Assembly: GCF_004114915.1 (NCBI RefSeq)
Contig: NZ_CP022219.1
Location: 6,416,501 to 6,480,500 of the forward strand
DNA from: Bradyrhizobium guangxiense
Lineage (GTDB): Bacteria; Pseudomonadota; Alphaproteobacteria; Rhizobiales; Xanthobacteraceae
Reading direction: 5' to 3'
DNA: 64,000 nt
A program made the translations under genes and the position numbers. This document shows positions 5,600-62,869 of the stretch, one piece after another. The notes under the pieces are model-generated. The model saw only the letters and a program-made list of their open reading frames with translations. It had not been told where the DNA came from and did no database searches. Position 1 is the stretch's first letter, and each line of letters begins with the position of its first letter.

Positions 5600-7666
5600 A
5601 TGTCCGTCGACGACCGGCCCACGCTTCAAGCTCCCGACGACGATCCCTTTCTGTGGCTCGAGGAGATCGAAGGCAAGCAGGCGCTCGATTTCGTCGAGCG
5701 GCAGAACAGCCTGACGCTCAGCGCGTTCGGCGGCAAGGCCTTCGAGCACGACCGCGATCTCCTCGCTGGGATCTACGACCGCCCCGATAACATTCCCTAT
5801 GTCAGCCGGCGCGGCTCCGACCTGCACAATCTCTGGAAGGACGCCGTCAACCCGCGCGGGCTGTGGCGGCGGACTACGCTTGCAGAGTTTCGCGAAGCCA
5901 GTCCAGCATGGGAGACCATACTGGACATCGATCAGCTCGCGCGCGACGAAAACGAGGATTGGCTGCTCGGCGGGATCGCCAGCACGCCGGGAAACTCACG
6001 CGTCGTTCTGAGCCTGTCGCGCGGCGGCAGCGATGCGGTGACGCTGCGCGAATTCGACATGATGACGAAGCGCTTCGTCGTGGGCGGCTTCACGCTGCCG
6101 GAAGCGAAGGGCGGCGTCGACTGGCTCGATGCCGACACGCTGCTGCTGTCGAGCGCCCATGGCGAGGGCATGGCGACGAGCTCGGGCTATGCGCGGACGG
6201 TTCGGCTGTGGCGGCGCGGACAGCCGGTCGACCAGGCCGAAATCATCGCCGAGACCACCGCCGATCACATGGTGATCTATGGCATGAGCGACGACACCGG
6301 ATCTGAGCCGCGGGTCTGGATCGTCGACCAGATCGACTTCTTCGACCACGCGATCCGGCTGCGCGATGCGGCGGGCGCGATGACCAAGTTCGATCTGCCG
6401 ACCGGCATCTGGCTGCAGGCCCATGGCGACTGGTTCGCAATGAAGCTGCGCAAGGACTGGACGGCCGGGGGGCGAACCTATGCCACCGACACCGTGCTCG
6501 GCATCTCGCTGTCGGCGTTCCTGAACGGCAGCCGCGACTTTGCCGTGCTGTTCGAGCCGTCGCCGCGGCGCGCCTTGCAGGGCCTGTTCTGGGCGGCGGG
6601 CAAGCTTGTGCTGTCGATCCTCGACGAGCTGCGTCCACGCTTCGAGATCTGCACGCCGTCCGCGGCCGGCTGGAAGCGCGAGATGCTTTCCGGCCTGCCG
6701 GAAATCGGCGTCATCGACGTCTGGACGCTCGATCGCCATCCTAGCGAGAGCAACGGCGATCTGCTCGCCAATGTGCAGGATCCGCTCACGCCGCCATCGC
6801 TGCTTCTGATCGAGCGCGGCGTCGCGAGCCCGACCGTGCTGAAGCAGGCGCCGAAGACGTTCACCGCCGACGGGCTCAGAGTGACGCAGCACGAGGCGGT
6901 CTCCGTCGACGGCGAGCGCATTCCCTATGTGCAGACCGGCCCCGCGAGCGAGACCGGCGATGCGCCGGTCTATATGAGCGCCTATGGCGGCTTCGCTGTT
7001 GCGGTGAAGCCGTACTACAATTCCTCGCTCGGCAAGCTCTGGCTCGAGCGCGGCGGCACCACGGTGCAGGCGAATTTGCGCGGCGGCGGCGAGTTCGGCA
7101 CGCGCTGGCACGATGCCGGGCGCCTCGCCGGCAAGAAATTATCGCATGACGATTTCGCGGCCGTTGCAACCGATCTCGTGCGACGCGGCGTGACTCGTGC
7201 GAAGCGCATCGCCGCGCAGGGCGGCTCGAACGGCGGCATCCTCATCACCAACATGCTGGTGCGCTACCCCGAGCGCTTCGGCGCGCTGTTCTGCACCATC
7301 CCGCTGATCGACATGCGCCGCTACACAAAGTTGCTCGCCGGTGCGAGCTGGATCGCGGAATATGGCGATCCGGACAAGCCCGAGGAGTGGGAGTGGCTGA
7401 AGACCTACTCGGCCTATCACAACGCAAAAGCCGGCCAGTCCTATCCGCCGATCCTGATCGCGACCACGCGGCGCGACGACCGCGTCCATCCGGGCCACGC
7501 GCGCAAGATGGCCGCGAAGCTGCAGGCGATGGGCTATGAAGCCTGGTTCTATGAGCCGGCCGCCGGCGGTCACGGCTACGGCAAGGACAACAAGGAGCGC
7601 GCCGGCTTCGAGGTGCTCGGCTTCCGATTCCTGAAAGACAAGATCGGGTGGAAGGATGAGGGCTAG
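5600..7666 (+). CDS. Prolyl oligopeptidase family serine peptidase (S9)
   Basis: A 688-residue cytosolic peptidase with no signal peptide. The N-terminal part, DDPFLWLEEIEGKQALDFVE, is the standard opening of S9A enzymes and leads into the beta-propeller. The C-terminal alpha/beta hydrolase domain has the nucleophile Ser543 in AAQGGSNGG, an acidic pair Asp626/Asp627 in RRDDRVHPGHARK and His658 in GGHGYG, giving a complete triad. The length is in the family range. CAGGAG sits 6 bases before the ATG at 5600; an in-frame TTG two codons earlier is less likely. It should cleave short proline-containing peptides. It is convergent with the methyltransferase gene, only 17 bases apart. Confidence 0.93.
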   Translation: MSVDDRPTLQAPDDDPFLWLEEIEGKQALDFVERQNSLTLSAFGGKAFEHDRDLLAGIYDRPDNIPYVSRRGSDLHNLWKDAVNPRGLWRRTTLAEFREASPAWETILDIDQLARDENEDWLLGGIASTPGNSRVVLSLSRGGSDAVTLREFDMMTKRFVVGGFTLPEAKGGVDWLDADTLLLSSAHGEGMATSSGYARTVRLWRRGQPVDQAEIIAETTADHMVIYGMSDDTGSEPRVWIVDQIDFFDHAIRLRDAAGAMTKFDLPTGIWLQAHGDWFAMKLRKDWTAGGRTYATDTVLGISLSAFLNGSRDFAVLFEPSPRRALQGLFWAAGKLVLSILDELRPRFEICTPSAAGWKREMLSGLPEIGVIDVWTLDRHPSESNGDLLANVQDPLTPPSLLLIERGVASPTVLKQAPKTFTADGLRVTQHEAVSVDGERIPYVQTGPASETGDAPVYMSAYGGFAVAVKPYYNSSLGKLWLERGGTTVQANLRGGGEFGTRWHDAGRLAGKKLSHDDFAAVATDLVRRGVTRAKRIAAQGGSNGGILITNMLVRYPERFGALFCTIPLIDMRRYTKLLAGASWIAEYGDPDKPEEWEWLKTYSAYHNAKAGQSYPPILIATTRRDDRVHPGHARKMAAKLQAMGYEAWFYEPAAGGHGYGKDNKERAGFEVLGFRFLKDKIGWKDEG

Positions 7667-7683
7667 CGTTCGGGCGTGACGAC

Positions 7684-8358
7684 CTATGACCGCGAAAACA
7701 CCAGCGTCAGATTATTCGCGGGCATCTCGATTATATCGACGAGGCCGAGGCCGACCGCCTTTGCCAGCTTCTCGACGTCGACGACATCGCGTACGCCCCA
7801 TTCGGGATTGCCTTCGCGCAAGGAGGTGTCGAACACCGCATTGCTGAGCGCGGTGTGCTTGCCGTCGCGCTTGAAGGGGCCGTAGAGGAACAGCTTGCCG
7901 TCGGCGCGCAGATAGCGGCCGGCGCCGGCGAACAGGCCCTCGGCCACGGCCCACGGCGCGATGTGGATGACATTGGCGCAGAACACGGCTGCAAGATTTG
8001 TCGGCCCCTGCCCGCTCTTCATCTCCGGACACCAGTCGGGATCGGCGAGGTCGATCCGCAAGGGTGAGCGAATGTTCGGCAGGCCGGCATAGACGCGCCA
8101 GGCCTCGATGCTCTTGAGATGGCGGTGGTTGAGGTCGCTCGGCCACCAGATCAGGGACGGCGTGTGGCGGGCGAAATGAACCACGTGCTGGCCGGTTCCG
8201 CTGCCGAGTTCGACCACGTTGCCGGTCCAGCCGGCAAGGTGCTTCTCCAGCGCTGCCCAGATCGGCTCGTGATTGCGGTGGAACGCCGGCGCATCGAGCC
8301 GCCCGTCCGGCTCGACCCGTCCGCCATCCCTGCCAAATTCGACGACATATTCAGCCAA
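7684..8358 (-). CDS. DUF938 family SAM-dependent methyltransferase
   Basis: A 224-residue class I methyltransferase-like protein. Near the N-terminus APAFHRNHEPI is the DUF938 family signature, followed by the SAM-binding glycine loop VVELGSGTGQHVVHFA and the acidic strand-2 end WWPSDLN. CANVIHIAPWAV and LFLYGPFKRDGKHTA complete the fold. The methyl acceptor is not known for this family. The start is taken at the first ATG, 8358; the region upstream is shared with the divergent sox operon, whose first start is 236 bases away. Confidence 0.9.
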   Translation of the reverse strand: MAEYVVEFGRDGGRVEPDGRLDAPAFHRNHEPIWAALEKHLAGWTGNVVELGSGTGQHVVHFARHTPSLIWWPSDLNHRHLKSIEAWRVYAGLPNIRSPLRIDLADPDWCPEMKSGQGPTNLAAVFCANVIHIAPWAVAEGLFAGAGRYLRADGKLFLYGPFKRDGKHTALSNAVFDTSLREGNPEWGVRDVVDVEKLAKAVGLGLVDIIEMPANNLTLVFSRS

Positions 8359-52573: not shown

Positions 52574-53344
52574 CTATAGCGTCAAGAACAGCGCAAAAGG
52601 CTCTTCTACCGTGCGGCGCAGGTGCTTTCGATACAGGGCATGATTGGCGTCGTCGGGCGCGACCCGTCCCAGCGAAGGCTGCGGGACGTTCCTGAGCGGC
52701 ACATAGGCGATCGGCGCCGCGATCGGCGTGAGCTGCGAGCCGGGACCAGCGCGCAGTGTCGAGATGATGCCGTACATCTCGCCGGACACCGTCGGCCGCG
52801 ACACCGTGATGACGCGATGCTGGCCGTGCTTGATGATGACGAGGTAGATGAAGCCGGACTGATGGGGCACCGCGACCTCGCCGGTATGCTCGTAGGCAGC
52901 ATCGGTCCGGTCGCCCTCGCGGAAGACCAGCGAGGAGACCTTCGGCTCCCAAACGATCTCGGTGCGGTAGGCGAAGATCGCGTCCTTGTCGCCGAACGAC
53001 GGCCGCAACGTGATGTAGACGTCCTCGAGCCAGGTCACGGCGCGATGCGCATAGGAGCCGAGACTGTCGGGAGCGACATCGTTGGCGGCCTGAGGCGCCG
53101 CCACGACGGGGGTTTTGCGCAAGGAGACGCCCAGCGCCTGCTCAAGCCGGACCGTCGTCGCCAGCGTGAACGGCCGACGCCCGCCGAGCACTTTCTCCAG
53201 TGTCGACAGGCTGATCTTGGCCTGCTCGGCCAGCGCCTGCCGGGAGATCCGGCGCCTCGCAAGCTCCTCGCGAATGGTCTCGGCGATCTCGCGACTCTGC
53301 TCGTCCGAAAGCTGCTTGTCGTTCAGTTTGTCCTGCATCCGCAT
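52574..53344 (-). CDS. XRE-type helix-turn-helix regulator with large C-terminal domain
   Basis: A 256-residue protein. Residues about 19-75 form the HTH: RRRISRQALAEQAKISLSTL and VLGGRRPFTLATTVRLEQAL. The C-terminal part of about 160 residues (HRAVTWLEDVYITLRPSFGD, VSSLVFREGDRTDAAYEHTG, GFIYLVIIKHGQHRVITVSR) is a predicted beta-rich domain that I cannot name, probably a ligand sensor. AGCAGGG before the ATG supports the start at 53344. Its start is 187 bases from the divergent sortase-substrate gene, so it is the obvious candidate for controlling the sortase pair. Confidence 0.85.
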   Translation of the reverse strand: MRMQDKLNDKQLSDEQSREIAETIREELARRRISRQALAEQAKISLSTLEKVLGGRRPFTLATTVRLEQALGVSLRKTPVVAAPQAANDVAPDSLGSYAHRAVTWLEDVYITLRPSFGDKDAIFAYRTEIVWEPKVSSLVFREGDRTDAAYEHTGEVAVPHQSGFIYLVIIKHGQHRVITVSRPTVSGEMYGIISTLRAGPGSQLTPIAAPIAYVPLRNVPQPSLGRVAPDDANHALYRKHLRRTVEEPFALFLTL

Positions 53345-53531
53345 CGCTAGCCCTGCTCCGGCACGCCCATTCTAGCAGGCCGGACAAACCAGCACAAAAC
53401 CGCACATGACCGCCCCGGCTGCGGCGCGCCCGGCCAGCCGTGGCGGAACATTGCCGATCATTCTGCTCGCGAAATCAGCCCCTTCCGGCGAATGCTCAGA
53501 GCCAGCAAACGTCCCTCCGGGAGCTGGCCAA
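53345..53531. promoter_or_regulatory. Divergent control region of the XRE gene and the sortase system
   Basis: 187 bases between two divergent starts. It must carry both promoters. I can point to GGGAG 9 bases before ATG 53532, but not to a clear palindrome or a convincing -35/-10 pair. An operator for the XRE protein would be expected here. Confidence 0.4.
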
Positions 53532-55796
53532 ATGAACACCTACGACACAGCCGACAACGACGAGCACCCCATGTTGAGCCGGCTGATCAAGCTCGGATTG
53601 TTTCTTCTCGCGCAGGGCATCGCGGTGATGCTGATGGCCTTCGTGGCCCTGCTCGTCAGCTTCGGGACGAGCTGGTCGGCAACGACCGAGCAGGCCGGTC
53701 TGCTCCAGCCCGGCGATGCCCGGTCCGGTACGCTGCTTCTGAAGGAAGATGGCGCCGTCATCGAGGCGATCCGCCTCGGTATCGACGTCGACATCACGGT
53801 CTCCGGCCCGACGCTGCGCGCCCGGGTCACTCAGGTCTTCCGCAATCCGAGCAAGGATTGGGTCGAGGCAACCTATGTCTATCCGCTTGCGACCGGCGGC
53901 GCGGTCGATACGCTGAAGATGGTGGTCGGCGACCGCGTCATCGTCGGAGACATCAAGGAGCGGCAGCAGGCGCGCATAATCTACGAAGAGGCGCGCCGCG
54001 CCGGCCAGAAGGCCGCGCTCACCGAGCAGGAACGCCCGAATATCTTCACCAATTCGGTGGCCAATATCGGTCCCGGCGAAACCGTGCTGGTGCAGATCGA
54101 ATATCAGGAGCCGGTGCATCAATCCGGCAATGAATATTCGCTCCGCCTGCCGCTGGTGGTCGGACCGCGCTACAACCCGGTGCCGATCGTCCAGAGCGTC
54201 GATTTCCGCAAGGATGGATCGGGCTGGGGCGCGGCGACCTCGGATCCGGTGCCGGACCGTGACCGCATCTCGCCGCCCGTGCTGGACCCTGCCAAGGCTG
54301 CCCCGATCAATCCGACCAGCATCACGGTGCGCCTGAAGGCCGGCTTCGCGCTTGGCGAGGTCAAGAGCCACCATCACAAGGTCAAGATCGAGAGTCCGGA
54401 CAGCGCGACACGCGTCGTCACTCTCGCCGACGGCGCTGTCCCAGCCGACCGCGACTTCGAGCTGACCTGGCAGCCCGCCGCCGACAAGGCGCCAACGGTC
54501 GGCCTGTTCCGCGAACATGTCGGCGATGCCGACTACCTTCTCGCGTTCGTCACCCCGCCCAGCGCCGAGCAGGCGATGCAAAAGCCGCTGCCGCGTGAGG
54601 TGGTGTTCGTGATCGACAATTCGGGGTCGATGGGCGGCACGTCGATGATCCAGGCCAAGGCGAGCCTCACTTACGCGCTCTCTCGGCTTCAGCCGGCCGA
54701 TCGCTTCAATGTCATTCGCTTCGACGACACGATGGACATGCTGTTCCCCGCCGCCGTGCCGGCAGATGCTGCGCATATCGGCGAGGCGACCTCCTTCGTG
54801 AGCGCGCTACAGGCGCGCGGCGGCACCGAGATGGTGCCGGCGATGCGCGCCGCACTGGCCGACAAGCTCGGCGAGAGCGGCATGGTTCGCCAGGTCGTCT
54901 TCCTGACCGATGGCGCAATCGGCAACGAGCAGCAATTGTTCGAAACCATCACGGCGATGCGCGGCCGCTCGCGCATTTTCATGGTCGGCATCGGATCGGC
55001 GCCCAACACCTATCTGATGACACGCGCCGCCGAGCTCGGCCGTGGAGCCTTCACCCATATCGGCTCCGTCGAGCAGGTGGAGGAGCGCATGCGCGGCTTG
55101 TTCGCCAAGCTCGAAAACCCGGCCGTGACCGGCCTCACCGCGAAGTTCTCCGAAGCCAAGGCTGACGTCACCCCAGCGATCATCCCCGACGTCTATCGCG
55201 ACGAGCCGCTGGTGCTTGTGGCAAGGCTCGACCAGCTCGCAGGCTCGCTCGAGATCAAAGGACGCGTCGGCGACCGTCCATGGTCGGTGACGCTGCCGCT
55301 GCAAAGGACCGCCGAGGGCAAGGGCCTGTCGAAGCTCTGGGCCAAGCGCAAGATCGGTGACGCCGAAGTGGCGCGTGCCATGCGGGAGCTCGCGCCCGAG
55401 GAGGCCGACAAGGCGATCCTGGCGCTGGCGCTTGAGCATCAGATCGTCACGCGCCTGACCAGCCTCGTGGCGGTCGACAAGACGCCGAGCCGCCCCGAAG
55501 GCGCGCCGCTCAAGCTCAGCGAATTGCCGATCAACCTGCCGGCCGGCTGGGATTTCGAGAAGGTGTTCGGCGAACGGCCGCATCTGACGCCGACACAGCT
55601 GCGCGAACGCCATGCCGACGCGCGCAACGAGCCGGCGACGCGACGGCCGACGCCCGCTGCAGCCGATGCGATCCGTCTGCCCAAGACGGCGACCTCGGCC
55701 GAGCTGAGGATGATGGCGGGCCTGGTCCTTATCGCGCTCGCCCTGATCCTGTTCGTGTTCAACCGGCGTCAGCCTTTGCTCACTGACGCCGCTTGA
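53532..55796 (+). CDS. VIT and vWA domain sortase-substrate protein (marine proteobacterial sortase target type)
   Basis: A 754-residue surface protein. A membrane segment near residues 18-45 (FLLAQGIAVMLMAFVALLVS) serves as signal or anchor. The VIT domain follows at about 75-200 (VTQVFRNPSKDWVEATYVYP, IKERQQARIIYEEARRAG). The vWA domain has an intact MIDAS, D362-N-S364-G-S366 in VVFVIDNSGSMGG, and later VVFLTDGAIG. The C-terminus carries L716-P-K-T-A-T, then a hydrophobic segment (AGLVLIALALILFVFN) and Arg-Arg, i.e. a complete sorting signal. The sortase gene follows. This is the arrangement named marine proteobacterial sortase target. The function of the anchored protein, probably adhesion or metal-dependent binding, is unknown. 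GGGAG precedes the start. Confidence 0.93.
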   Translation: MNTYDTADNDEHPMLSRLIKLGLFLLAQGIAVMLMAFVALLVSFGTSWSATTEQAGLLQPGDARSGTLLLKEDGAVIEAIRLGIDVDITVSGPTLRARVTQVFRNPSKDWVEATYVYPLATGGAVDTLKMVVGDRVIVGDIKERQQARIIYEEARRAGQKAALTEQERPNIFTNSVANIGPGETVLVQIEYQEPVHQSGNEYSLRLPLVVGPRYNPVPIVQSVDFRKDGSGWGAATSDPVPDRDRISPPVLDPAKAAPINPTSITVRLKAGFALGEVKSHHHKVKIESPDSATRVVTLADGAVPADRDFELTWQPAADKAPTVGLFREHVGDADYLLAFVTPPSAEQAMQKPLPREVVFVIDNSGSMGGTSMIQAKASLTYALSRLQPADRFNVIRFDDTMDMLFPAAVPADAAHIGEATSFVSALQARGGTEMVPAMRAALADKLGESGMVRQVVFLTDGAIGNEQQLFETITAMRGRSRIFMVGIGSAPNTYLMTRAAELGRGAFTHIGSVEQVEERMRGLFAKLENPAVTGLTAKFSEAKADVTPAIIPDVYRDEPLVLVARLDQLAGSLEIKGRVGDRPWSVTLPLQRTAEGKGLSKLWAKRKIGDAEVARAMRELAPEEADKAILALALEHQIVTRLTSLVAVDKTPSRPEGAPLKLSELPINLPAGWDFEKVFGERPHLTPTQLRERHADARNEPATRRPTPAAADAIRLPKTATSAELRMMAGLVLIALALILFVFNRRQPLLTDAA

Positions 55797-55823
55797 GAGA
55801 GGAGCCCCCCAACTCCTCTGTTA

Positions 55824-55871
55824 GCGCGCGCGGCTGCCCGTCCCGCAAAAACGGCCGCGCGCGCCTTTTTT
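55824..55871 (+). terminator. Strong hairpin with T-run between sortase substrate and sortase
   Basis: GCGCGCGCGGC (55824-55834) pairs perfectly with GCCGCGCGCGC (55854-55864), loop 19 bases, followed by C and six T residues. It lies between the substrate stop (55796) and the sortase start (55885). A smaller hairpin, AGAGGAG with CTCCTCT (about 55798-55818), precedes it. As an internal terminator it would let only part of the transcripts reach the sortase gene. Confidence 0.8.
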
Positions 55872-55884
55872 CAAGGTCATTGCA

Positions 55885-56451
55885 ATGCCCCGCCTCGTCT
55901 CTCCTCTGGCTCTCGCGCTTGTCGGCTTCCTCTTGTTCGGCGACGGCGCCTACATCCACGCCAAGGCCTGGCTGACGCAGGTGCTGCTGGAGCAGGCGTT
56001 CGACCGAAGCATTGCGACGGGCCAACCGGTCAAGCCGTGGTCCTGGGCCGACACCTGGCCGGTTGCGCGGATCGAGGTCAAGCGGATCGGCGCCAGCGCC
56101 ATCGTGCTGGAAGGCGCGAGCGGACAGGCGCTTGCTTTCGGACCCGGCCACATCCAGCACACGGCCGATGCAGGCGAACGCGGGATAGCCGTCTATGCCG
56201 CGCATCGCGATACGCATTTCCGCTTCCTGCAGAATGTCGCCATCGGCGACGTCATCGACATCACACGAAGTGACGGCCGACATTTTCGCTATCGCGCGGA
56301 TTCCTCGGCCGTGGTTCGTTTCGATGCATCGGGGATCGACGCCACGGCACGAGATTTCGAGCTCGTTCTCGCGACCTGCTGGCCATTCGATGCCGTCACT
56401 CCCGGACCCGAGCGCTACATCCTGCACGCGACATTGATCGGCACCGACTAG
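55885..56451 (+). CDS. Class GN-type sortase
   Basis: A 188-residue transpeptidase anchored by one N-terminal membrane segment (LALALVGFLLFGDGAYIHAK). The catalytic triad is complete: His107 in VYAAHRDTHFRFL, Cys165 in VLATCWPFDAV and Arg177 in GPERYILHA. The TCWPF context is typical of Gram-negative class GN sortases; Gram-positive ones usually read TLxTC. It should cleave the LPKTA signal of the preceding protein and link it to an acceptor that in Gram-negative bacteria is not well defined. No ribosome site is obvious; CAAGGTCATTGCA precedes the ATG. A strong terminator lies 14 bases upstream. Confidence 0.93.
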   Translation: MPRLVSPLALALVGFLLFGDGAYIHAKAWLTQVLLEQAFDRSIATGQPVKPWSWADTWPVARIEVKRIGASAIVLEGASGQALAFGPGHIQHTADAGERGIAVYAAHRDTHFRFLQNVAIGDVIDITRSDGRHFRYRADSSAVVRFDASGIDATARDFELVLATCWPFDAVTPGPERYILHATLIGTD

Positions 56452-58880: not shown

Positions 58881-58946
58881 TATTGCGACCGAAGCGCCAT
58901 CCGGGCTCCTTCCAACTTCGCCGCTTTGGCCGTAAAATCTTCCTGC

Positions 58947-59783
58947 ATGGCACGCGCGAGCAATCTTGTAATCGGCACGGTGACGCTGGCGGTGATCGCC
59001 GTGGCGTTCGGCGGCCTGCTCGGCGTGCAGAAATGGCGCACCATCCAGAGCCGCAGCCAGTTGCGCGTGGTGTTCGAGGGCGGCTCCGCCAGCGGCCTGC
59101 GTCGCGGCGGCCCGGTCAATTTCGATGGCGTGCCCGCCGGCCAGATCCTGTCGATCAAGCTGGACAGTCCGCGCCGGATCGTGGCGCTGGTGATGCTCGA
59201 CAACACCGCACCGATCCGCAAGGACACCGTGGCGGGCATCGAGTTCCAGGGCCTCACCGGCGTTGCCGCGATCTCGCTGATCGGAGGCGCTCCCACCGCG
59301 CCACCGGTGCCGCTGGACTCGGACGGCGTCCCCGTATTGACCGCCGATCTCAGCGACGCCGAATCCATCGTCGAGACCCTGCACAGCGTCGACCGCACGA
59401 TCGTCAGCAACGCCCCCGCCATCAAGGACGGCCTGCGCACGTTCGAAGATTACACTGCCGATCTCCGGAGCAAGGGCGGCGAGATCGATTCCGTCATGGC
59501 CAAGGTCGACAGCGCCTTCGCGGGCTTCGACAAGGCGGTCACGAAGATCGAGGGCGTGGTGCCCGGCTTTGTCAACGGCAAGGCCGACGAGCTGTTCGAG
59601 AAGATCAAGGGACTGCATGAGCTTGCCGACACCATGAAGACGAAGTCGGCGAGCTATATCGAGGACATCCGTCGCTCGCTGCTCGACGTCAGCGAGGCCG
59701 CCAACAAGATGAGCGGAACGCCCGCACCGGCCGCGCCCCCACGGCCGCGTCCGCCGAGCAAGCCACCGCAGAAGAAGCAGTAG
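58947..59783 (+). CDS. MCE (MlaD-like) domain protein
   Basis: A 278-residue protein. One N-terminal membrane segment (LVIGTVTLAVIAVAFGGLLG) is followed by a single MCE domain: LRVVFEGGSASGLRRGGPVN, FDGVPAGQILSIKLD, and TVAGIEFQGLTGVAAISLIG. After this comes a helical region (about 135-250), and a tail rich in Pro and basic residues (APPRPRPPSKPPQKKQ). MCE proteins form rings or tubes that carry lipids across the periplasm. No MlaE/MlaF-type permease or ATPase gene is adjacent. The start MARASN is chosen to keep the helix near the N-terminus; no good ribosome site is seen, and a TTG 7 codons earlier is an alternative. Confidence 0.88.
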   Translation: MARASNLVIGTVTLAVIAVAFGGLLGVQKWRTIQSRSQLRVVFEGGSASGLRRGGPVNFDGVPAGQILSIKLDSPRRIVALVMLDNTAPIRKDTVAGIEFQGLTGVAAISLIGGAPTAPPVPLDSDGVPVLTADLSDAESIVETLHSVDRTIVSNAPAIKDGLRTFEDYTADLRSKGGEIDSVMAKVDSAFAGFDKAVTKIEGVVPGFVNGKADELFEKIKGLHELADTMKTKSASYIEDIRRSLLDVSEAANKMSGTPAPAAPPRPRPPSKPPQKKQ

Positions 59784-59941: not shown

Positions 59942-62869
59942 TTACCACGCGTAGCGCACGAGCCCCTTGCCGGCGTAGGAGCGGGTGACGTTCGAGAACT
60001 CCCCCTCAAAGGTCGCCGACGCTGACCAGCCGTTCATCCAGTTCATCTGCGCCGAGGCCGTGGTCAGCGCCGCATCGCGCGCCTGCACGGCACCGTTCAC
60101 GACGAAGGCCGATCCCGGCAGCGTCTGGAACACCGCGCCGACCGTGCGGTCCGGATTGTAATCATGCGCCCAGGCGAGCCGGCCGCGCAGGGTCATCAGG
60201 CCGCTGGCCGCGGCAAAGGACCGGTCCGCGCGCAGGCCGAGCTCGGAGCGGGTGCTGGTCACGTCCTTGGCGGCATAGCTGAGCGCGAAGACATTGCTGC
60301 CGACCACGGCGGACTCTGCATAGGAGGGAAGGCTGAACAGGGTGGCCTGGAGCGCGGCGTAAGGCGTGACGCCGGCCCATTGCATGGCATAGCGATAGCC
60401 GCCCTCGATGCGGCCCGAGATCGCGTTGGTGTTGAACTGCGCGCGCAACTGGTCATAGCCGGCAGCGGTCACGACGCGGTTGGTCGTGACGTCCTGCCAG
60501 CCATAAGCGAGCGCCGCCGTGACGTAAGCCGGTCCGGCCGTATGGCGCACGAAGGCGCCGGCCTGGAACAGATCAGAGCGCCCCCAACCGAGCCCGCTGA
60601 CGTTGAACCCGGTCCCGCCGCCCGAGAGGGCGAAGCCCGCAACCGTCGACGGCGAGAAGCGGTAGTCGAGGCCTACGGCGGTGCCATAGACGCTGCTGGT
60701 GGTGGTGTTCGAGCCGAGGCCGGCGTTGCCATCGGTGGCCTGCGAGCCGCCATAGCCGGCCGCCCACACGTCCCAGCGCTGCTCGAACGTCGCAGCTGGC
60801 GCCCTGCGGTCGATCGCGGCAAAGGCGCCGCGCGCGCTTCCGTCATGTGCACTCCTGCCGGTCGCCGCATAAGCGTTCGCACTCGCCTCATCGCCAAACG
60901 GGGTCGTTCCAGGCGCGCCACTGCGCCCTGAGCCGAACACATCGGTCAGCAGGCCGAGGAACAGGCTCATCGCGTTGAAGGTGGTCTGCTGCGATCCCGT
61001 GCCCGATTCACCGGAGGCCTGCGTGAGACCGGCCGGCGAGAGATTGGCGAGCGCCAGGGGAAGGCTGCCGGTGCGGTCGAAATAGCGCGCCAGCGCGTTG
61101 GCAACGCTCTGCTGGTTGACGTTGAGGCCGGAACCGTAGCTCAGCGAAAGATCGAGAAAGACGTTGTTCGGATCGTAGCTCAGCACAGCCTTCAGGTTCG
61201 ACGAGAGCCCGGCGACGACCGGATTGAACGTGTCGGGGAGCGTCGTCGCCGTCAGGATCGTGTAGTGCTTCGCGCCCGAGCCGGTCGGGACGACGACGAC
61301 CGTGGCACTGCCGAGCGTCGCCGTTCCTGTCACGACCGCGAGGCCGTTGCTGGCGCCCGAGATTTGGACCTTGTAGTTCGACGCCGACGTGAAGGCGAGA
61401 TCACCGGACACGGTCAGCGTGCCGGTCGGATGGCCCGGCGCCAGCGTACCGCCGTTCACCGCGGTGGTGCCGACCGTGCCGACGCCACCGAACGTGCCGC
61501 TGCTCGCAACGATCATGGTGCCGTTGATGGTGCCGGCGAGCATGAGCGTGCCGCCGAGCACGCTCCAGTCTTGATTGCCTGTGCCGGTCACGGTCCAGGT
61601 CGAGCTGTCGCCCTTGTTGAAGGTCGAAAAGCCGACATACTGGAGACCGCCGCCGATCAGGCCGAGATTGAACGTATCCTTGCCGGTGCCGCCGAGCTGG
61701 AATGTGTCGGTGCCGGCGCCGAGCACTTGGCCGGTGATGACGCTGCCGGGGCCGAGGGTGAGCGTATTGGGGCCGCAGGCGCAGAAGTCGATCGCGACGG
61801 CACCGGACGCACTGGCGTTGATCGTTCCCGAATTGAAGACGCTCCCCCCGCCGTCCACTCTGATGCCGACACTGCTGGCGCCGACGGTGACGATGCCGGT
61901 ATTGATGACCTTGTTGGTCGAACTGAAAGCAACCACGTCGATGCCGACGCCGGAAGCGCCGACGGTGATGCTGCCGCTGTTGGTAACTGTGTTGGAAATA
62001 CCAACCGCGACGATGCCTTCGGCGAAATCACCGGCGGTGATCCGCCCGCTGTTGGCGATCGTGGCCCGATCACCCTGCACGAAAATGCCCGCCGAGCTGT
62101 TGCCCCCTACCATGATCGTGCCGCCGTTGGTGATCTTGGAATCGTCCCCCTGCACGGCAATGCCGACGCCCAGATCGTCGGTCGCGATCGCGCCAAAATT
62201 GCTGACGGTCTGGAAGTTGCCCTGCATATAGATGCCGGCGGCGTTCTGTCCGACCGTGATCGTGCCCGGCGCGGCGTTGGTGATGGTATTGTTCTGGCCC
62301 GCGAAGATGCCTGTGCCCGACGCGCCGGCCGACAGCGCGCCGCTGTTGGTGACGGTGTTGTTGTCGCCAATCGAGATCGCGACGCCGCTATTGCCGGTCG
62401 CGATCGTTCCGGCATTGGCGATGATGTTGTGATCGATCGCGTGGATTCCGAGACCGTTGTCGAGCGCCGTGATGGTGCCGTTGTTGGTCACGACGTTCGA
62501 ATTTCCGGCTCCGATCCCGGTCAGGCCGGAGCCTGCCGACAAAGTCCCGTTGTTGATGACCCCGTTAGAATCATTGACGCCGATCGAAAGCCCGCCGTTG
62601 TCGTTCACGGTCGCGCCCGAGAGCACGTTGACATTGAGGCTGTCGACGCCGACACCGGCCTGAAAGCCGTCGGCGTCCGTGCCGCCGCAGGTGACAGTCT
62701 GGCCGCTGGTGGCCGGATCGGGTGCGCACAGCGCGTTGACCGGCGTCGTGAGAAGGCTGAGGCCAAAGAAGACCAGCGATACGCTGGCGAGAGACGCAGC
62801 GACGCAACGGCGCAGTCGACGCTGCCGCCACGATAGCCCCTCGTCCCTCACGCCACGCCCCCCCGCCAT
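59942..62869 (-). CDS. Autotransporter with repeat-rich passenger and C-terminal beta-barrel
   Basis: A 975-residue type Va secreted protein. An extended basic signal region (SWRQRRLRRCVAASLASVSL and a hydrophobic core, ending VNA) covers residues 1-46. The passenger (about 70-380) is a beta-helix built of units like NNGTITALDNGLGIHAID, VTNSGALSAGASGTGIFAG and NSGRITAGDFAEGI, period roughly 24-27 residues. It is followed by autotransporter-strand repeats (GGTLMLAGTINGTMIVASSG). The barrel occupies about the last 270 residues, from RWDVWAAGYGGSQAT, and ends GKGLVRYAW with the expected aromatic C-terminus. Probably a surface adhesin. The longest overlapping frame on the other strand is an artefact. 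Confidence 0.93.
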   Translation of the reverse strand: MAGGRGVRDEGLSWRQRRLRRCVAASLASVSLVFFGLSLLTTPVNALCAPDPATSGQTVTCGGTDADGFQAGVGVDSLNVNVLSGATVNDNGGLSIGVNDSNGVINNGTLSAGSGLTGIGAGNSNVVTNNGTITALDNGLGIHAIDHNIIANAGTIATGNSGVAISIGDNNTVTNSGALSAGASGTGIFAGQNNTITNAAPGTITVGQNAAGIYMQGNFQTVSNFGAIATDDLGVGIAVQGDDSKITNGGTIMVGGNSSAGIFVQGDRATIANSGRITAGDFAEGIVAVGISNTVTNSGSITVGASGVGIDVVAFSSTNKVINTGIVTVGASSVGIRVDGGGSVFNSGTINASASGAVAIDFCACGPNTLTLGPGSVITGQVLGAGTDTFQLGGTGKDTFNLGLIGGGLQYVGFSTFNKGDSSTWTVTGTGNQDWSVLGGTLMLAGTINGTMIVASSGTFGGVGTVGTTAVNGGTLAPGHPTGTLTVSGDLAFTSASNYKVQISGASNGLAVVTGTATLGSATVVVVPTGSGAKHYTILTATTLPDTFNPVVAGLSSNLKAVLSYDPNNVFLDLSLSYGSGLNVNQQSVANALARYFDRTGSLPLALANLSPAGLTQASGESGTGSQQTTFNAMSLFLGLLTDVFGSGRSGAPGTTPFGDEASANAYAATGRSAHDGSARGAFAAIDRRAPAATFEQRWDVWAAGYGGSQATDGNAGLGSNTTTSSVYGTAVGLDYRFSPSTVAGFALSGGGTGFNVSGLGWGRSDLFQAGAFVRHTAGPAYVTAALAYGWQDVTTNRVVTAAGYDQLRAQFNTNAISGRIEGGYRYAMQWAGVTPYAALQATLFSLPSYAESAVVGSNVFALSYAAKDVTSTRSELGLRADRSFAAASGLMTLRGRLAWAHDYNPDRTVGAVFQTLPGSAFVVNGAVQARDAALTTASAQMNWMNGWSASATFEGEFSNVTRSYAGKGLVRYAW

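Follow-up and report, generated by a model that had tools for sequence, protein, structure and literature searches.

A divergent XRE-type regulator as the conserved partner of a Gram-negative sortase and its VIT/vWA target in Bradyrhizobium guangxiense and related bacteria

How might a Gram-negative sortase be controlled in a genome that lacks recognizable Pds genes? The question is raised by a locus at 52574-56451 of a window of 64,000 nucleotides (the whole stretch of DNA analysed) from Bradyrhizobium guangxiense, assembly GCF_004114915.1, contig NZ_CP022219.1, positions 6,416,501 to 6,480,500 of the forward strand. A class GN sortase gene follows there the gene of a VIT/vWA sortase target, and an XRE-type regulator gene is read in the opposite direction from both. 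The role of Gram-negative sortases is called unknown in PMC10581121. The answer considered probable here is a three-gene module, in which the sortase and a single VIT/vWA substrate are accompanied by a dedicated one-component regulator, which would bind repeats in the shared promoter and replace the PdsRS two-component system.

The enzyme and its substrate are both recognized by curated models. The sortase (188 amino acids, 55885-56451, plus strand) scores 208.4 bits against TIGR03784 (curated cut-off 158.25) and the target 804.6 bits against TIGR03788 (curated cut-off 551.65), with its VIT and vWA domains matched. Since both scores exceed the curated cut-offs, the sortase-substrate pair recognized in the initial annotation is not a chance assembly. 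None of PdsO, PdsR and PdsS had been seen in its vicinity, and a genome-wide model search agrees, with nothing at the curated cut-offs: the best scores are 60.1 bits for PdsO (TIGR03789, cut-off 152.2, 16 of 16 candidates scored), 221 for PdsR (TIGR03787, cut-off 335.7, 105 of 105) and 158.2 for PdsS (TIGR03785, cut-off 612.2, 52 of 52).

The divergent XRE gene had also been noted initially, with the suggestion that a different regulator operates here; the open reading frame was confirmed at 52574-53344 (minus strand, 256 amino acids), and its protein is a conserved third member of the module. This could be established first on the named loci, which are the best 80 of 577 (L070-L149). The window's affinity to Bradyrhizobium shows in its relatives too, with 93% to B. 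nanningense in these loci and Bradyrhizobium among the best protein matches that carry a name. Five of them end too early to judge (L087, L111, L114, L117 and L139), and 74 of the remaining 75 carry a divergent XRE gene. This count comprises 72 loci with XRE at most 700 bp away, start to start, plus L097 and L106, where the target is split into two frames; L136 was scored as divergent, though a contig end cuts its XRE gene. The only testable named locus devoid of it is L103, from Bradyrhizobium hereditatis (7659-7772), where the sortase is kept, the target is represented by its last 38 residues only and XRE is absent. Two named loci have surprising labels: L076 ("Frankia sp. RB7") resembles Bradyrhizobium loci and L125 ("Bacillus subtilis SK6B4") Pseudochrobactrum loci, and these assemblies are probably mislabelled or contaminated.

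The partnership also holds in a family sample of 100 genomes, where the XRE search scored up to 27 candidates per genome: a profile match of at least 400 bits marks all 12 genomes whose sortase exceeds the cut-off and none of the 88 others. One of these (G034) has a weak sortase match of 20.5 bits and no XRE of at least 400 bits, and two others hold distant XRE relatives (142.8 and 127.5 bits). The distances between XRE proteins correlate with those between targets (r 0.92 for 61 loci, against at most 0.24 in permutations), a correlation that vertical descent alone would yield too.

A wider view came from a phylum sample of 398 Pseudomonadota genomes, in which the PdsO and XRE searches scored up to six candidates per genome. 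TIGR03784 is matched in 37 of them (33 over the cut-off), 19 from the window's class and 18 from outside it. The XRE family is present in 16, of which 14 also have a sortase (G463 and G339 do not), and these amount to 14 of the 19 sortase-bearing genomes of the class; it was not found in the other five (G141, G204, G348, G397 and G470), nor in any of the 18 sortase genomes outside the class. In the family of G141 (f3), the target occurs in 12 of 101 genomes and XRE in two of those 12; XRE is nevertheless present in L131 and L133, two named loci from Rhizobium. PdsO, for its part, reaches E<=1e-30 in 13 of the 398 genomes (12 over the cut-off), all outside the window's class and ten of them with a sortase, and in none of the 19 sortase-bearing genomes of the class. 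The initial description of a "reduced" system thus had to be abandoned; the comparison of gene order that it called for shows XRE staying divergent across relatives, and the arrangement is not unusual for the class. A decaying system was likewise rejected, the catalytic triad and sorting signal being intact here and widely conserved, as detailed below. In G463, a full-length orphan XRE gene (L201, 8097-8951) lies beside unrelated genes, and its promoter holds a weakly matching repeat; it may be left over from a module since lost.

Could XRE be a passive neighbour, retained through synteny? The named loci are mostly from Bradyrhizobium and have conserved surroundings, which would fit, but the gene persists where these surroundings change. 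The CoA-ligase gene flanking the module is a Bradyrhizobium neighbour, and it is lost in the non-Bradyrhizobium loci L118-L121, L123-L145 and L147-L149, XRE being kept wherever the locus reaches far enough. XRE, target and sortase also sit side by side on plasmids from both Phyllobacterium and Novosphingobium, the latter typed as conjugative; a Rhizobium leguminosarum plasmid has the target-sortase pair only, XRE being absent. In one genus (L172-L174), moreover, XRE has been relocated, on the same strand and 2.7-9.7 kb from the target start, ending up about 1 kb or less downstream of the sortase in two of the three loci and about 7 kb in the third. Retention through synteny alone therefore looks very improbable.

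The shared gap provides a plausible binding site for the regulator. Three 10-bp direct repeats, GGACAAACCA, GCACAAAACC and GCACATGACC (53382-53411, plus strand), are proposed as the XRE operator. Among 58 promoter gaps read outward from XRE (the window's own and those of loci from L095 upwards), ACA is repeated at a spacing of exactly 10 in 48, compared with a mean of 1.9 and a maximum of 7 in shuffles. A spacing of 9 occurs in one gap and of 11 in none; a spacing of 8, too, is more frequent than expected (16 gaps; shuffles 2.3). The consensus of the 48 sites exceeds the letters used to select them, with C at 0.96 between units 1 and 2, and CCG at 0.79, 0.88 and 0.88 ahead of the third ACA-like core. 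Up to two mismatches, 53382-53411 is the sole match of the three-unit pattern in the genome, and therefore looks single and local; at three mismatches there are 17 further matches, versus 10 for a reversed control. At two of the three-mismatch places (G000 C1:1962080-1962114 and C1:3821554-3821588) the pattern recurs 10 bases on, which may reflect further XRE sites or chance.

These repeats follow the XRE gene. Within 480 bases around the target start, 76 of the 85 loci that have a divergent XRE gene contain ACA-10-ACA, as against one of 14 class loci without nearby XRE, none of the three where XRE has moved and one of 17 non-alphaproteobacterial loci. Excluded from these upstream counts were L159 (184 bp upstream), L163 (without target), L216 (the weaker, additional target in G552) and the pair L204/L205, which repeat L175/L176. 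With a matrix trained on the 48 sites from other loci, the best site in the 17 kb of each of the relocated loci lies in the XRE gene's own promoter, in three cases out of three (15.7, 22.9 and 24.9 bits). Self-control by XRE is thus supported, at the level of sequence, and control of the target is suggested by the position of the repeats in the gap common to both. Two observations weaken the association: the best matrix scores in 21 loci lacking XRE reach 15.8, 13.3 and 13.0, and the site of the orphan XRE gene in G463 scores only 12.3.

A more restricted role has also to be envisaged, in which XRE regulates itself only and is linked to the pair in some other way, another factor driving target and sortase from a second conserved block. 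This block, GGAACATTGCCGATCATTCTGCTCG (53445-53469, plus strand), is conserved in the Bradyrhizobium alignment, is a candidate promoter of target and sortase and lies closer to the target start; in the loci where XRE moved, the repeats sit at XRE and no good match is left at the target. Yet the repeats occupy the shared gap in divergent loci, and XRE and sortase coincide in all 12 family genomes, so that this restricted role is judged rather unlikely. The corresponding motif, GAACA-N14-16-[GC]CT[CG]G, is present in 20 of the 58 gaps (shuffles: mean 0.30, maximum 2). The block resembles a -35/-10 pair of an extracytoplasmic function (ECF)-type sigma factor (GGAACA...CTCG), unlike the EcfG consensus. 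The EcfG promoter pattern is GGAAC-N16-17-CGTT; it occurs in none of the 58 gaps and was rejected. A sigma-70 promoter scan found none.

Another possibility is that ChvG/ChvI controls the pair in this genome as well, XRE being secondary. According to PMC3687685, PMC10659215 and PMC2651895, ChvI binds upstream of Sinorhizobium meliloti SMc01580 (gel shift), and this gene is acid induced; a table of PMC6637203 places SMc01580 beside an Ensifer adhaerens "sortase target protein", with 80% identity. A consensus GCC-N8-GCC for ChvI is quoted in PMC9731502, where it is described as putative. GCCAYRAWTWRGCC, a motif written after viewing the sequences, fits this consensus and lies upstream in six of 12 XRE-less Rhizobiaceae loci (shuffles 0.00); a looser ChvI-type pattern reaches eight of the 12 (shuffles: mean 1.95, maximum 6). 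The genome of the window itself has its best PdsR and PdsS matches in adjacent genes, followed by further genes. We take the former to be chvI-chvG and the following ones to be hprK, a phosphotransferase system component and HPr, an order that matches the chvI-chvG layout. Against control by ChvG/ChvI, GCC-N8-GCC was not found in the window gap 53345-53531, nor in 17 of 25 Bradyrhizobium gaps, and such control of the pair in this genome appears improbable.

In other lineages the same regulatory slot is filled differently, which was counted in favour of a dedicated regulator. Relatives of PdsR and PdsS lie divergently upstream of the pair in 10 of 17 non-alphaproteobacterial loci, as found by BLAST clustering. 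This clustering of conserved neighbours is noisy (antisense open reading frames) and was used solely as a pointer to PdsR/PdsS. In an NCBIfam scan of non-alphaproteobacterial members, three of three PdsR proteins exceed the cut-off, as does one of four PdsS proteins, the three others scoring 520-587 against 612.2; the remaining members in the 10 loci rest on the clustering. PdsO adjoins the target in six of these 10 loci and is absent beside it in four, three of which contain only a weak PdsO-profile match of 44-45 bits. The runners-up of the PdsR and PdsS models include BaeR, CreBC and ChvG. ChvGI is presented as an envelope-homeostasis system in the title of PMC9731502, and together with these runners-up this role points to an envelope function.

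Turning to the pair itself, the sortase has an N-terminal hydrophobic segment and a catalytic triad, His107, Cys165 and Arg177, which was located where initially described and does not vary among the 21 sortases aligned; its domain is the only one of its kind in the whole genome. The target was predicted at 53406-55796 (plus strand), with VIT at 126-233, vWA at about 398-548, DNSGS at 404, LPKTAT at 758 and RR at 787, again in line with the initial reading of its C-terminus. The first 42 codons of this frame are probably non-coding: frame-breaking indels occur before the ATG at 53532 across the alignment of 25 Bradyrhizobium gaps, and a GGGAGC motif sits just 5' of this ATG, so that the start is moved there. 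The revised target (53532-55796, plus strand, 754 amino acids) has DNSGS at 362 and LPKTAT at 716, and hydropathy indicates a hydrophobic segment near each end, the C-terminal one running from 725 and followed by RR.

A search for other proteins with a C-terminus of this type, as called for at the outset, gave 21 genome matches to the LPXTG-anchor model at E<=10, three of them over the cut-off, with the target on top; among the eight of the 21 that were read (the 13 unread ones being weaker), only the target combines LPxT, a hydrophobic segment and Arg. Of 129 target open reading frames across loci, 111 have LPxT[AGS] in their last 70 residues; the 18 others include non-alphaproteobacterial PQTA-like targets and LPxGA variants (L136, L171 and L178). 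Two of the anchor-model matches without LPxT, L025 and L026, are neighbouring open reading frames (G000 C1:320863-321922) with near-identical tails, VPGP-VGAGLPGL-hydrophobic-AWRRRR, which resemble PEP-CTERM-type sorting signals.

A further conserved element separates the two genes. A GC-rich hairpin (55824-55864) with a predicted stem of 13 bp and a CCCGTCCC loop, followed by T6 (the whole spanning 55824-55871, plus strand), is a candidate terminator or attenuator and is conserved in Bradyrhizobium. The target-sortase gap folds with -39.3 kcal/mol (z -3.71); elements made of a stem plus CCCGTC[CA]C fall in this gap in 43 of 44 cases (1.196 Mb, L070-L149), and 34 of 49 Bradyrhizobium-type loci show a stable fold with at least five consecutive T after it. 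The terminator scan, which permits only loops of 3-8 bases, omits the hairpin. Covariation showed no excess over shuffles and cannot test the structure, since the stem hardly varies. An Rfam scan gave no match at the hairpin; its tfoR match at 56169-56261 (minus strand) has 20.9 bits where the gathering score is 70, and was dismissed as chance. The hairpin could lower the sortase relative to its substrate.

The architecture of the XRE protein may give a hint about its signal. A helix-turn-helix at about 14-71 precedes a predicted eight-stranded beta barrel at about 108-216 and a C-terminal helix. HTH_31 is matched with 28.9 bits (cut-off 27), and in 31 of 33 members of the family at E<=0.01; all Pfam matches of the window's protein are confined to residues 21-76. 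The AlphaFold2 (AF2) model has a mean predicted local distance difference test (pLDDT) score of 89.9, and the barrel alone reaches 91.7, with a predicted template modelling (pTM) score of 0.88. A search of solved structures with the sequence returned two weak matches only, both to helix-turn-helix proteins (E 0.15 and 0.77).

The following mechanism can thus be proposed for the module. The helix-turn-helix of XRE would bind the three repeats in the divergent promoter; XRE would thereby regulate itself and, in all likelihood, the target and sortase genes too. A small ligand is probably sensed by the barrel. The substrate would be held in the inner membrane via its C-terminal segment until the sortase cleaves LPKT|AT and joins the protein to an acceptor amine, for which a peptidoglycan stem peptide is the simplest candidate. 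A bolder and unlikely extension is that the barrel reads out the sortase reaction or the envelope state, for example through a lipid or peptide freed at anchoring; the closed loop would then keep anchored VIT/vWA protein at a steady level, and the hairpin would keep the enzyme below its substrate. More generally, a short unique operator and a possible ligand-binding domain offer, in laboratory strains, a direct route to the signal, and hence to function.

Downstream of the module, the window contains a lone MCE/MlaD-like gene (58926-59783, plus strand) and a large autotransporter-like gene (59942-62869, minus strand).

How, finally, does this module compare with known systems? The enzyme and substrate are already known: both score over the TIGR03784 and TIGR03788 cut-offs and share the gene order, the triad and the LPxTAT, transmembrane and Arg signal, and no difference was found in them. 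Class D sortases provide the next-best models and have LPxTA-type signals, but the scores, 77.7 bits for NF033746 (cut-off 165) and 80.6 for NF058671/SrtD (cut-off 140), are far below the cut-offs, and this assignment was rejected. No account of XRE accompanying class GN sortases turned up in the open-access literature searched, subscription papers lying outside its scope, and the barrel-containing regulator and its operator of three repeats seem not to have been described in the searchable papers. The predicted barrel itself, with eight antiparallel strands closing, is reminiscent of avidin, fatty acid-binding protein (FABP) and lipocalin-type barrels. SMc01580 is likened to the present target through the table row of PMC6637203, and differs by its published regulation by ExoS/ChvI. 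The Pds system has the same pair and, in 10 of the 17 fetched non-alphaproteobacterial loci, a divergent regulator as well, but the window has a one-component XRE protein instead of the two-component pair, and PdsO is absent. One and the same sortase-substrate pair occurs under three kinds of regulation: PdsRS, the barrel-containing XRE protein and, apparently, ChvGI.

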